Of a stretch of 50,453 nt of DNA, positions 40,904-45,688 are shown in pieces; the first letter of the stretch is position 1; each line of letters begins with the position of its first letter. A program made the position numbers and the translations under genes. This DNA is from Lysobacter sp. Root690 (GTDB taxonomy: Bacteria > Pseudomonadota > Gammaproteobacteria > Xanthomonadales > Xanthomonadaceae): contig NZ_LMHM01000013.1 of the NCBI RefSeq assembly GCF_001427785.1, positions 218,955-269,407 of the forward strand, written 5' to 3'. The notes beneath the pieces are model-generated. The model was not told where the DNA came from. It was given only the letters and a program-made list of their open reading frames with translations, and made no database searches.

Positions 40904-41716
40904 ATGACCCATACGACCCGAACCCCGACCCTGGCGATGGCCGCTTGCGTGCTGGCCGCGCTCGCCCTGATCGGTTGTTCGAGCACGGTCGTGCGCGAGC
41001 CCTCGCGCGGCGGCCACAGCCGTCCGGGCTCGTCGGCGCGTCCCGGCGGCTCGCGTCCGTCCACCCCGTCGCAGCCGGCGTCCAAGCCCAAGTACGGCGC
41101 CACCTACACCGTGCAGCGCGGCGAAGGCCTGTATCGCATCGCCGCCAACAACGGCATCCAGCTGGCCGACCTGGCCGCCTGGAACAACCTGTCGCCGCCG
41201 TACAATCTGTACCCGGGGCAGCGCCTGCGCCTGTATCCGTCCAACGGCAGCCGCCCACCATCGTCTTCGGGTTCGTCCTCGGCCGGCACCACACCGCCGC
41301 GCACCAGTACGCCCGCGCCGACGCCGGCCGCGCCGATCAACAGCGGCATCCGCTGGCGCTGGCCCGCCGACGGCCCGCTGCTGGGTCGCTACGTCGCCAA
41401 CGAACCGACCAAGCAGGGCGTCGACATCGGCGGCGCCAGCGGCACCCCGGTGCGCGCCGCGGCCGATGGCGTGGTCGTGTATTCGGGCACCGGCCTGGTC
41501 GGCTACGGCGAACTGATCATCGTCAAGCACAACGAACAATGGCTGTCGGCCTACGGCCACAACCGCAAGCGCCTGGTAAACGAAGGCCAGTTGGTCAAGT
41601 CCGGCGAGCAGATCGCCGAGATGGGCCGCAGCGGCGCCGCGCGCGACATGCTGCACTTCGAAGTGCGCTACAACGCCAAGCCGGTCGATCCGTTGTTGTA
41701 CCTGCCGGCGAAGTGA
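40904..41716 (+). CDS. nlpD: NlpD-type LysM/degenerate LytM lipoprotein
   Basis: A 270-residue outer-membrane lipoprotein (lipobox LIGC, C25). A LysM domain (about 66-112) binds peptidoglycan; a Pro/Ser/Thr-rich linker (113-145) leads to a LytM (M23-like) domain (148-270). The LytM site is degenerate: the first ligand pair reads Q171-G-V-D174 in place of H-x-x-x-D, and the H-x-H motif reads M249-L-H251. NlpD proteins of this kind do not cleave but activate cell-wall amidases such as AmiC at division. No rpoS follows within the window. A second copy of its last 105 bases lies at 44319. Confidence 0.92.
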   Translation: MTHTTRTPTLAMAACVLAALALIGCSSTVVREPSRGGHSRPGSSARPGGSRPSTPSQPASKPKYGATYTVQRGEGLYRIAANNGIQLADLAAWNNLSPPYNLYPGQRLRLYPSNGSRPPSSSGSSSAGTTPPRTSTPAPTPAAPINSGIRWRWPADGPLLGRYVANEPTKQGVDIGGASGTPVRAAADGVVVYSGTGLVGYGELIIVKHNEQWLSAYGHNRKRLVNEGQLVKSGEQIAEMGRSGAARDMLHFEVRYNAKPVDPLLYLPAK

Positions 41717-41757: not shown

Positions 41758-42087
41758 ATGGATTTCGCGACTTTGAAAGCGGCCTGGCCATGGACCGACA
41801 TCGTCGACTGTCCGGGCCGGTTCGTGCTCAAGCATGCCGATCCCGCGCTGATGCCCGCGGACCTGCTCGGTTCCGATATCCCCGTGTCCGAACACCGCAG
41901 CGCCTTGGCGCGCGACGTGGTCCTCGTCGCGTGGCTGACCGATGGCGGCCTGATTTCCTATCGACGGGCCGATGGCGGCTGGCTGCATACGCTCAATACG
42001 CCCGAAGGCATGGCGCGAAAACTGTCGCAGTTGGGTCTAGCGCCGCCTCAAGCGCCGACGCGGATCGTTGCCGCGTCGGTTCTTTGA
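41758..42087 (+). CDS. Hypothetical protein after nlpD, 109 residues
   Basis: An ATG at 41758 gives MDFATLKAAWPWTDIVDCPGR; the frame also opens at a GTG (41713) that overlaps the nlpD stop (GTGA), adding 15 Arg-rich residues. No signal peptide or TM segment. The sequence alternates short strands (GRFVLKHADP, RDVVLVAWLTDGGLISYRRADG, WLHTLNTPEGMARKLSQLGL). No family is recognised. Its position suggests translational coupling to nlpD. Confidence 0.6.
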   Translation: MDFATLKAAWPWTDIVDCPGRFVLKHADPALMPADLLGSDIPVSEHRSALARDVVLVAWLTDGGLISYRRADGGWLHTLNTPEGMARKLSQLGLAPPQAPTRIVAASVL

Positions 42088-42188: not shown

Positions 42189-42821
42189 ATGTCGACATCG
42201 CCGCGTGAAGCCCAGATCGAGCCACTGCCGGATTCGCTCGAAGATGGCGATGAGCTTCAATGGGACGTCGCGGACGGCAGCGATGCCATATCGGGGCAAA
42301 TTCAGAGCCGGCCACTCAACCCGCACGACCGGGTGGTGTTGGCGTCCATGCGCGAAGGCTGCGATGGAATTATCGGCTTTCTGGGCGCGATGGCTCTGAT
42401 CATCGCGATCTGCTTAGGTCTGAGCGGGATTTACACCCTCGATGTGGGTGCGATCGCGGCCGTCGCGTCGGTCGTCGTCTGCCTTCTGGCCGCGGTGGGT
42501 TTCCTGCTGTCGAAAGAGGACGGCAAGCTGCAGTCCGATCTGAATGCCGGCATCAAATTGATCGTCTCCGGCCGCATCGTCCGCATGGACTCCGAAGAGA
42601 CCAGCGGTCCAGGCTTCCTCACCGTGGCCGTCGACGAGACGCCCGCCCGACAGATCAAGTTCTTCGTGGAAAAACGCTTGTACCTGCAGGTCAAGCCGGA
42701 CGACCTCGTGCGCATCGCCTATGTCCCGCTCAGCAAGACGATCCTTCAGTTGAGGACCGGGCATTGCCGCTATGGCCGGCGTCCAGATCCAGACAAGGTC
42801 CGGGCGGGCACCTCGGCATGA
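42189..42821 (+). CDS. Membrane protein with one DxxxGIK/VRIxYxP module
   Basis: A 210-residue protein. After an acidic N-terminus of about 50 residues it has two hydrophobic segments (about 62-80 and 86-106), then SDLNAGIKL (117-124) and a beta-rich domain to residue 190 with VDETPARQIKFFVEKRLY and VRIAYVPLSKTILQLRT. The same module occurs in 42818-44017 (twice) and 44539-45111. The soluble part resembles DUF3592-type domains in topology, but I do not recognise the family. AAGGA lies six bases before the ATG. It overlaps the next gene by 4 bp (ATGA). Its G+C content looks slightly lower than in the core genes nearby. Confidence 0.75.
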   Translation: MSTSPREAQIEPLPDSLEDGDELQWDVADGSDAISGQIQSRPLNPHDRVVLASMREGCDGIIGFLGAMALIIAICLGLSGIYTLDVGAIAAVASVVVCLLAAVGFLLSKEDGKLQSDLNAGIKLIVSGRIVRMDSEETSGPGFLTVAVDETPARQIKFFVEKRLYLQVKPDDLVRIAYVPLSKTILQLRTGHCRYGRRPDPDKVRAGTSA

Positions 42822-44017
42822 CGGCATCGTCCGACGAAAGCAAGACGCAGCCGCTGAGCCAGGACGAGATCGCTCGCCTGGATGCCCTCAAATCCAACGG
42901 AGCGTTGGGTGCGATAGCGATCGTCGTGATCACGCTGTTGATGGTGTGGATGACATGGGAGCGTTACGGCGCTTTCTTGAGCGCGGTGGCCGTAGTCCTT
43001 GGCTTGGCACTGGCGGCGTTGACGGCGCTGGGCAGCTGGGCCACCAACGCGAACCTTCAGGCCGATATGGACGGCGGCATCAAGCGGCTCGCCGTGGCGA
43101 CGGTGGCGAAAGTAACTCACGACGGCGAGCGATCGCGCTACCGCATCGAGCTGCGAACCGAGGAAACGCCGCCGTGCTCGCTCGAATTCGACCCACCGGC
43201 CCTCGTGTTTTTCGAGGTTGAATACGGCGAGCAAGTCCGGGTCGCCTATGCGCCGGCCAGCAAGACCGTCATCAGCGTCGTCGCGGTGGGATGCGAGTAC
43301 GATTTCGCCGCGCCGGACGTGGCTCTGCAGGCCGCGTTGGCGCCCGCGAGCTCGGCCGATTCGCGTTTGCAACAACGCAGGGCGCAGCGTGATGCGGCGC
43401 GTGCACTGCGTCGGAAAACCTTGTCCGCGCCCTCGGATCCCGATCTCCAGCAGGCGTCTGCAGCGCTTCGCGCGGAAGAGCCCGCGGCGAGCAGCGAAGA
43501 CACGCCGCGGCGCCAGACCGGATCGCTCAACGAACACGAGCGGAAGATCTTGACCGCGAGGCGGACGAGTGGCTGCGGAATGATCGCTTCGTTGGGCGTC
43601 GTGGGCCTGGTTTTCGCGGCGGTGCTGATGTTGGCCGGCGTGAAGGACATGGGCGCAGGCGCGATCTCGGTCGTTGCGGTCGCCGCTCTAGTGGCGGTGG
43701 CCCTGATGGTGTTCATCACATCGAACGAGGACGACAAGATGCAATCCGATCTCGACACGGGGATCAAGCTCAGCGTCCGCGGCCGCATCAGCCACATGCG
43801 GACCGAGAGTTCCGAAGGCGGCAGTCCTTATTGCTTCATCACGGTGACGGTCGATGAGTCGCCGCCGCGGACGATCGTGTTCCTGGTGGAAAGTCGCTTG
43901 TTTCATGCGTTGCTGCCGGAGGATGCGGTGCGCATCGTCTACGCGCCAGTCAGCAAGACCATTCTGCATCTGCGGACCGACTCGTACAGCTACTCGTTGC
44001 GCCAGAAATCGGATTGA
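42818..44017 (+). CDS. Membrane protein with two fused DxxxGIK/VRIxYxP modules
   Basis: A 399-residue protein made of two copies of the module found in the preceding gene. Module A: TM segments about 31-48 and 52-73, ADMDGGIKR (82-90), VRVAYAPASKT (140-150). Module B: TM segments about 254-272 and 280-300, SDLDTGIKL (310-318), VRIVYAPVSKTILHLRT (371-387). An Ala/Arg/Gln-rich linker (about 165-235) joins them. Module B is closer to the single-module protein upstream than to module A. The four TM segments place both soluble domains on the same side of the membrane. Its ATG overlaps the upstream stop by 4 bp. Function is unknown. Confidence 0.78.
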   Translation: MTASSDESKTQPLSQDEIARLDALKSNGALGAIAIVVITLLMVWMTWERYGAFLSAVAVVLGLALAALTALGSWATNANLQADMDGGIKRLAVATVAKVTHDGERSRYRIELRTEETPPCSLEFDPPALVFFEVEYGEQVRVAYAPASKTVISVVAVGCEYDFAAPDVALQAALAPASSADSRLQQRRAQRDAARALRRKTLSAPSDPDLQQASAALRAEEPAASSEDTPRRQTGSLNEHERKILTARRTSGCGMIASLGVVGLVFAAVLMLAGVKDMGAGAISVVAVAALVAVALMVFITSNEDDKMQSDLDTGIKLSVRGRISHMRTESSEGGSPYCFITVTVDESPPRTIVFLVESRLFHALLPEDAVRIVYAPVSKTILHLRTDSYSYSLRQKSD

Positions 44018-44156
44018 CCGCGGTCGGCGGTGCTTGCTTGTTCGCGACGATGGGTGCGTGCGTCGACTGGATGCTTCCACCGCACATCGGCGTCGGCGCG
44101 CGGCCCGGATGCCGAGGTCGTGGATACCCGAGTGGCTTACGCCGACTGCGAGGTGG

Positions 44157-44265
44157 TTAAGTGTAGTCGTGGCCCCAGATGCGGAACCTGGCGGTGTCGA
44201 TGTGCAGATGGTGCGCATCGTAAAACCCGAGGTCGACGTCGCTCGCCGGGCCGTAGCGATGTCAG
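44157..44265 (-). pseudogene. Relic of a zinc-peptidase-like gene, C-terminal part
   Basis: On the minus strand the frame reads HRYGPASDVDLGFYDAHHLH then IDTARFRIWGHDYT before TAA, and is stopped directly upstream by TGA. The pattern of F-Y-D-A-x-H-x-H-I-D-T...W resembles the end of YcbK/M15-like murein peptidases, where a G-x-Y...H-I-D-x-G...R-x-W block closes the zinc site. Only about 35 codons survive. The family call is a guess from this pattern. Confidence 0.35.
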
Positions 44266-44318
44266 AACACGCACAGCGACAAAAGCCGCGTCGGGACGAA
44301 TCGAATGTTCAGGGCCTT

Positions 44319-44423
44319 ATCGCCGAGATGGGCCGCAGCGGCGCGGCGCGCGACATGCTGCATTTCGAAGTGCGCTACAACGCCAAGCCGGTCGATCCGT
44401 TGCTGTATTTGCCAGCGAAATGA
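44319..44423 (+). pseudogene. Second copy of the nlpD 3' end (34 codons plus stop)
   Basis: The 105 bases match 41612-41716 at 98 positions. All seven differences are synonymous (Ala, His, Leu, Tyr, Leu, Pro and Lys codons), so the encoded 34 residues (IAEMGRSGAARDML...LLYLPAK) are identical to the NlpD end. Similarity stops sharply to the left of the ATC at 44319; to the right it may go on for about eight bases past the stop. There is no start codon or ribosome binding site for it, so it is a fragment, not a gene. Confidence 0.85.
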
Positions 44424-44538
44424 GCCGTTCGGGCGATGAGCGGTGGGCGAAGCCTGTGCGCGATGGTGTGCGCCCAGGCTGGCTTCAATCCGCCTTCGAT
44501 TGTCGGCCCGATGTTTCGGCTACGGTATTGGATGACGG

Positions 44539-45111
44539 CTAGGTGGATGCGCCGTGCCTTTCGGCGGCGATGTATCGGTAATCGCCGTCGATCAAGTCGA
44601 GCAGGTGGCGGCCGTGCGGCGAGTAGGCGATGCGGACCCGGTCGCCTTTCTCGATGGCCTCGTAACAAGTCGAGGAAATCGTGGAAACGATCAGTCTTGC
44701 CGGATCGGGATCGATCGCGATTTCGACATGATAGATCGATCGCCCGGAGTCGGGGTCCTCGCGTATCCGCATCGCATGCACGCGGCCGTCGCGCCAAAGC
44801 TTGATGCCGTCGGCTACATCTGCGCGCAGTGTCCGTTGATCGCGATTGATCCACCGTGCCACCCATAGCCCAATCAGCGACAGCATGCCGAAGCAGAGCA
44901 GCCACCCTCCACGGTCCAAGTCCGGCGCAGCCATCACGATGACAGTTACGCCGAGGGTGATCGCCGCCAAGCCGCCGATCAGGGGCGCTGCAGTCGATGT
45001 TTTCGAACGCAGATAATCCAGCTCGCGCGAGTCCAGCGGCGCACTATCGATTTCGTAGGCACTGCAGGTTGCGGTCAAGTCGAGCCCTCGATGCAATTCA
45101 CGGTCGTCCAC
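44539..45111 (-). CDS. Membrane protein with one DxxxGIK/VRIxYxP module, opposite strand
   Basis: A 190-residue protein with a GTG start at 45111. It has two hydrophobic segments (about 42-61 and 68-86), then ADVADGIKLWRDGRV (97-111), a beta-rich stretch (IYHVEIAIDPDPARLIVS) and VRIAYSPHGRHLLDLI (159-174). This is the same module as in the plus-strand genes 42189-42821 and 42818-44017, though more diverged. It faces them across the relic zone. The ribosome binding site is weak, and the function is unknown. Confidence 0.7.
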   Translation of the reverse strand: MDDRELHRGLDLTATCSAYEIDSAPLDSRELDYLRSKTSTAAPLIGGLAAITLGVTVIVMAAPDLDRGGWLLCFGMLSLIGLWVARWINRDQRTLRADVADGIKLWRDGRVHAMRIREDPDSGRSIYHVEIAIDPDPARLIVSTISSTCYEAIEKGDRVRIAYSPHGRHLLDLIDGDYRYIAAERHGAST

Positions 45112-45191: not shown

Positions 45192-45566
45192 TCACCCGCC
45201 CAGCACGAACCCCGCGACCACTTTGCGGCCTTCGCCGGCCAGCACGTTGAAAGTGCGCGCGGCGGCCGAATTGGTCATGGTTTCCAGGCCGACCCCGCGG
45301 CGCAGGCAGGCGGCCAGGGTCGCGGCGGGCGGGAATGCCTGGGTGGCGCCGCCGCCGAGCACGATCAACTCCGGCTCCAGCGCGAACAGCGGTTCCAGGT
45401 CGTCGATCGTCAGGGTGCGCACGTCGCTCACCGCCCAATCCTCGATCAACTGGTTCGGGGCGAGGACGAAACTGCGCTGCAGCCGCCGGTCGTTGACCAG
45501 CGCGACCTGGCCGTCGGCCCCGCGCAGGAAGAATTCGTGGTCGGGGCGTTCCAGGGTCAGTTGCAT
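45192..45566 (-). CDS. Mth938-like (NDUFAF3/DUF498) domain protein
   Basis: A 124-residue protein of the Mth938-like fold. Recognisable parts: LVNDRRLQRSFVLAPNQLIEDW, ELIVLGGGATQAFPPAATLAACLRRGVGLETMTNSAAARTFNVLAGEGR, which is the conserved alpha/beta core. The bacterial role is not established; the eukaryotic relative NDUFAF3 assists complex I assembly. No signal peptide. It is followed by a heptamer repeat upstream of its start, between it and yhbY. Confidence 0.82.
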   Translation of the reverse strand: MQLTLERPDHEFFLRGADGQVALVNDRRLQRSFVLAPNQLIEDWAVSDVRTLTIDDLEPLFALEPELIVLGGGATQAFPPAATLAACLRRGVGLETMTNSAAARTFNVLAGEGRKVVAGFVLGG

Positions 45567-45574
45567 GGGGCGGA

Positions 45575-45688
45575 GATTCGGGATTTGGGATTCGGGATTG
45601 GGAAAAGCAGGGCGGAAGCCGGTTTTAGCTGGCTGTACGGAGTTCAGGCTTTTGCCAAATCCCGAATCCCTGATTCCGAATCCCGGCC
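45575..45688. repeat. Inverted pair of heptamer repeats between Mth938-like gene and yhbY
   Basis: The left block (45575-45603) is GGGATTT, GGGATTC, GGGATTG units; the right block (about 45656-45688) is AATCCCG, AATCCCT, GATTCCG, AATCCCG units. The two are near reverse complements separated by about 52 bases, so the region can fold into a long hairpin. The same AATCCC heptamers occur at 34501 and 36224. Confidence 0.75.

Follow-up and report, generated by a model that had tools for sequence, protein, structure and literature searches.

In the genome of Lysobacter sp. Root690 (6.3 Mb; G000 hereafter, other G-numbers denoting related genomes), the interval between nlpD and a DUF498/Mth938-like gene carries three genes, at 42189 to 45111 of our window (the whole stretch of 50,453 nucleotides that was analysed), which are built from four copies (M1 to M4) of one membrane module. 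Within the sets searched the module is restricted to Lysobacter, where it keeps a constant place between these two genes and varies in copy number. On balance, we favour a reading in which the modules form an inner-membrane family of this genus with an OB-like barrel in a binding or adaptor role, housed in an nlpD-DUF498 gap that recombines. The family looks real and fast-changing; the function proposed for it here is putative. Apparently undescribed and genus-restricted, this membrane protein family comes with a mapped locus, a module-free state in relatives and a recombination scar, and the gain, fusion and exchange of one orphan family can be traced at a single locus.

Architecture and distribution of the module

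An initial annotation of the stretch had described three open reading frames (ORFs) with motifs of the D-x-x-x-G-I-K and V-R-I/V-x-Y-x-P types, all of which are present, and had proposed that they contain four copies of one module. This homology was confirmed by a whole-genome search with the first gene product (P0001), which at E <= 0.001 brought up just the other three modules besides the query itself (1.7e-37, 6.7e-11 and 3.5e-9), and by a profile built from the four modules, which recovered 41 modules in 21 loci. All four share one plan, in which a short N-terminal helix and two transmembrane (TM) helices are followed by a D-x3-G-x-K turn and then by a beta domain. The two TM segments per module noted at the outset hold across the family, as each of the 39 modules whose boundary was placed by motif search has a pair of hydrophobic stretches (best 19-residue windows 1.7-3.3); the two modules missed by that search (G015_9835m and G006_10448p) are excluded from the boundary-based analyses of TM segments, lysine/arginine (K/R) bias and the ratio of non-synonymous to synonymous substitution rates (dN/dS). 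The 40 modules of the nlpD-DUF498 intervals match 156-168 of the 170 profile positions and contain no stop, and four columns are invariant across all 41. The K/R bias places both module ends, and the beta domain, probably in the cytosol, and a model of P0001 of middling quality (block pLDDT 72-81 in the barrel) suggests that the C-terminal domain is an OB-like barrel; the model of the two-module P0002 was too poor to use. The stop codon of P0001 and the start codon of P0002 share ATGA (42818-42821), and the two genes therefore appear to be co-translated. Neither promoter-like sites (0, against 0.6 in shuffles) nor terminator-like sites (2, against 2.4) were in excess, and Rfam gave no match at the locus.

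To place the module in the genus we used 20 Lysobacter genomes, one per species, in all of which nlpD was located. A single-sequence search gave matches in 14 of them, G000 included, and the profile applied to the nlpD regions identified 16 carriers with one to five copies each, which answers the question, raised initially, of whether the cluster recurs beside nlpD in other Lysobacter. Modules were found neither in the nlpD region nor by whole-genome profile search in G007, G011, G012 and G018; the latter search covered 18 of the 20 genomes, G004 and G009 being covered by the single-sequence search and their nlpD regions. The nlpD-DUF498 interval ranges in length from 682 to 6809 bp, with 0-5 modules in each genome and 40 altogether. 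A pattern scan of contigs located module loci in L. antibioticus 13-6 and Lysobacter sp. ISL-50 (at least two loci). The forty-first module, lone and diverged, sits outside the interval in G015 (L088:6258-6764), away from nlpD; its adjoining ORFs resemble, by eye, queE, queC and a hybrid kinase, a neighbourhood that told us nothing.

At the level of the Xanthomonadaceae, a P0002 query matched 8 of 247 genomes, all within the genus, and the profile matched 15 of 297, 14 of them within the genus, the sole other match covering 65 positions (E 8.8e-4). The profile also matched, beside G000, 3 of 369 genomes of the class and 5 of 398 of the phylum, with short TM-part matches of 16-22 bits. Matches outside the genus were set aside because their coverage is limited to the TM part. 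No relatives were found in viral contigs or, with the P0002 query, in plasmids, the phage collection not having been searched. The DUF498 gene itself is present in 57 of 60 family genomes, and we examined 30 DUF498 loci with 1.5-kb flanks, 28 of them from other genera. In these 28, nlpD lay within the flank in 24 (so that 24 intervals were seen whole), an M15-type peptidase gene in two and a module in none. Since the intervals of other genera lack it, the module most probably entered the Lysobacter line as an addition, placed between two convergent genes that are old; the genus-limited distribution and these empty intervals therefore mark the modules, by sequence comparison and within the sets searched, as a genus-specific expansion and not a general partner of NlpD.

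The features of the locus are collected in Table 1. The cluster does not lie directly after nlpD, as had been thought, since a 109-aa ORF intervenes, and two features within the stretch, the duplicate of the nlpD end and the M15 remnant, had gone unmentioned.

Table 1. Features of the module locus and its borders, in window coordinates
Feature	Position	Strand	Description
nlpD (LysM + M23)	40904..41716	+	left border of variable interval
109-aa ORF (hypA)	41758..42087	+	between nlpD and module cluster; without Pfam match
P0001 (gene 1), 210 aa	42189..42821	+	single module M1; two TM helices, then C-terminal beta (OB-like) domain
P0002 (gene 2), 399 aa	42818..44017	+	M2 + M3 fused; linker with predicted helix (low-confidence model)
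M15-type peptidase gene remnant	44160..44297 (approx.)	-	matches residues 150-193 of G001 relative, 67%
Duplicate of nlpD 3' end, 105 nt including stop	44319..44423	+	98/105 identical
P0003 (gene 3), 190 aa, GTG start	44542..45111 (44539 including stop)	-	single module M4
DUF498/Mth938-like gene	45192..45566	-	right border of variable interval

Signs of exchange and constraint at the locus

In a tree of the modules (9 of 38 inner branches open) five groups, M1 to M5, are each common to several species, and the M2-M3 fusion occurs in 7 of the 20 Lysobacter genomes and is therefore not peculiar to G000. The earlier idea of a paralogous cluster shaped by duplication and fusion, with variable copy number and a place beside nlpD in the genus, is supported. 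Genes of the M4 type are oriented toward nlpD, and those of the M1, M2, M3 and M5 types away from it. The 109-aa ORF is matched at the same place in 8 of the 20 genomes, G000 included; at this site, right after nlpD, G008, G016 and G019 (L092, L093 and L090) have an ORF of 159-165 aa, for which Pfam gave no match in G016. An M15-type gene often shares the interval (the G001 copy is Peptidase_M15_3, E 6.9e-11), with longer copies in other Lysobacter genomes and no more than a remnant in G000. An ORF of 457-460 aa with a HELFH motif lies inside the interval of G009 (L083:10732-12105) and, at the same place, of G014 (L086); the G009 copy has no Pfam match at E <= 0.01.

In G000 a second copy of the final 105 nt of nlpD is present, with seven differences, and none of the other 19 nlpD regions has such a duplicate. 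All seven differences are synonymous, all 34 residues are kept, and similarity ends at both edges, where 6 of 30 and 10 of 30 bases match beyond. The order is M15 remnant, nlpD-end duplicate, M4. Between G000 and G004, synonymous divergence (dS) is 0.55 for M4 and 0.03-0.12 for the flanking surE, pcm, yqaA, nlpD, DUF498, yhbY and rlmE genes; M1 (0.29), M3 (0.35) and the 109-aa ORF (0.22) are also above the flanks, and M2 (0.11) is not. The nlpD-end copy abuts a broken M15 gene and precedes M4, which is most simply explained by import: a segment carrying the end of nlpD together with an M4 gene would have arrived from another lineage and taken the place of part of the M15 gene. Because the G000 M4 is still sister to the G004 M4 in the module tree, a distant donor is not required; G010, with the order nlpD-M4-DUF498, illustrates an arrangement that a donor could have had. 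A local copying of the nlpD end with later decay is disfavoured because all seven differences are synonymous; were changes to fall without constraint, this would have a probability of about 3e-5 if any change is allowed and of 7e-4 for transitions only. Gene conversion is a possible alternative, and so, for M4, is hidden paralogy. By these signs the locus recombines.

We estimated dN/dS by a simple counting method, in which the G000/G003/G004 pairs are not independent. Module values were 0.19-0.81 (median 0.42; below 1 in all 20 comparisons) and those of seven neighbour genes 0-0.25 (49 comparisons); raised values were also seen in four pairs of the 109-aa ORF (0.13-0.30) and three of the M15 gene (0.25-0.40). 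Over 17 orthologue pairs, the N-terminal tail was the most variable part of the module (97 of 264 positions differing, 0.37), and the DxxxGxK region (24 of 238, 0.10) and the barrel (157 of 1213, 0.13) were among the more conserved parts, with 51 of 340 positions differing in the helix before TM1, 166 of 811 in the TM part and 47 of 213 in the C-terminal tail. By this measure the modules are under purifying selection, weaker than in their conserved neighbours.

Possible roles of the modules

Most probably the modules serve in binding or as adaptors, through a cytosolic OB-type part that is tethered to the membrane, and they may be of a conflict type. In the scheme we favour, each module would begin with a helix, cross the membrane twice as a helical hairpin and end in an OB-like barrel, with both ends predicted to be cytosolic. 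The barrel, held at the membrane, would bind a protein or small ligand or act as an adaptor for it, and the nlpD-DUF498 gap would be a permissive site where, through recombination, copies multiply, disappear and pass from one lineage to another.

The main rival, to which we give a clearly smaller but real chance, is that the modules form an immunity or defence array, whose copies guard against the toxins of rivals or against phages and whose copy change, divergence and allele import are driven by that conflict. One to five copies per carrier genome, a divergence exceeding that of conserved neighbours and the signs of an imported M4 allele are all consistent with this. However, no toxin or mobile gene was recognised in the interval among the ORFs scanned, which were only some of those present; PADLOC matched 1 of 41 members (E 0.022) and PHROGs at most 2 of 41 (best E 8.2e-4, a phage family, 1 of 41); and neither plasmids (P0002 query) nor viral contigs yielded relatives, the phage collection not having been searched. 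Moreover, none of the 20 comparisons gave a dN/dS above 1, and it is the N-terminal tail that varies most, with the barrel and the DxxxGxK region more conserved. Should the modules turn out to act in conflict, Lysobacter, a genus used for biocontrol, would possess a new variable store at this locus. A bolder proposal, which we regard as improbable, is that the gap is a store, particular to the genus and supplied by recombination, of recognition modules with OB barrels anchored at the membrane; the set would vary between strains, with the nlpD end as homologous handle for its trade, and would serve kin recognition, phage defence or the self-protection of these predatory, antibiotic-producing bacteria.

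The constant place beside nlpD and the M15-type gene often found in the same interval could also suggest that the modules assist NlpD and the divisome, or cell-wall hydrolysis, as accessory factors; the initial annotation had hinted at a divisome link. We consider this unlikely, and a direct partnership with NlpD unlikely as well: nlpD occurs without the module in 4 of the 20 Lysobacter genomes and in the 24 complete intervals from other genera, modules occur without an M15 match in the interval (G005, G009, G010 and G015) or with only a piece of one (G000 and G006), and the barrel is predicted to be cytosolic, whereas NlpD is an envelope protein. There is similarly little to recommend the view that the modules are near-neutral orphan genes under relaxed constraint and kept by chance. 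Their gain and loss and a dN/dS above that of conserved neighbours would suit it, but all 40 interval modules are intact, dN/dS stays below 1 throughout and four columns are invariant over the 41 modules.

Comparison with known families

Pfam, NCBIfam, PHROGs and PADLOC contained no well-fitting family, only weak matches to changing families, in keeping with the initial annotation, which knew of no described system with this arrangement; literature listings, which carried the starts of abstracts, held nothing on the module family, a result confined to those listings. The best family matches of P0002 (DUF6594, Wzy_C and DUF2207_C, E 4.9e-4 to 9.5e-4) were all under their own cut-offs. Over the 41 modules, Pfam gave weak matches to the unrelated TM families DUF4131 (16 of 41) and Phage_holin_3_6 (13 of 41; best E 3.4e-4, for Phage_holin_3_6), to TOBE_2 (7 of 41), and to DUF2500 and NfeD_membrane (2 of 41 each). 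A symporter model matched 1 of 41 (E 4.6e-4). A PDB sequence search with P0001 found no match, and Foldseek matches such as telomerase, complement and clamp proteins were regarded as small barrels of a generic kind. Among the closest known systems, the TOBE/Mop domains of ModG and MopII, cytoplasmic molybdate binders by their titles, show 6% identity and are not known to have TM helices.

The initial annotation had likened the soluble part to DUF3592, an idea that fails on the order of domains, on the Pfam model and on a comparison of profiles. DUF3592 is likewise a membrane protein with a beta domain, whose V-x-Y-x-P strand resembles the VRIxYxP of the modules over 18 hhalign-aligned columns, the only likeness found. 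However, its beta domain lies (by eye) between TM stretches and not after both TM helices, its model (PF12158) has its sole genome match on contig 11 and not at the modules, and it is not among the best 25 of 58 Pfam families weakly matching the 41 modules. With hhalign, nine DUF3592 sequences gave probabilities of 1.5% (barrel) and 0.8% (whole module), and NfeD gave 0.2% and 2.7%, from small alignments of 9 and 14 sequences. The short form of NfeD also has TM helices followed by a C-terminal domain, which there is an OB barrel and in the modules may be one, going by the middling-quality model; the sole genome match of NfeD (PF01957) is on contig 18. DUF2500 (PF10694), a structure of which (PDB 3q6c) is among the fold matches of the module model, has no genome match at E <= 0.001 (best E 0.0098, over 2 of 41 modules). 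A diverged branch of DUF3592, DUF2500 or NfeD, for which the shared strand, the 3q6c match and the weak DUF2500, TOBE_2 and NfeD_membrane matches might speak, is thus already disfavoured and has little probability, as none of the three models matches at the modules of G000 at E <= 0.001, hhalign probabilities are 0.2-2.7%, and more members weakly match the unrelated DUF4131 and Phage_holin_3_6.

Outside the variable interval, between the DUF498 gene and yhbY, lies an inverted repeat (45569-45688) with 38-nt arms, 82% identical, built of GGGATTC-like heptamers; a pattern of such heptamers matches exactly at 123 places in the genome (57 forward and 66 reverse, overlaps counted), against 0 for a reversed control.
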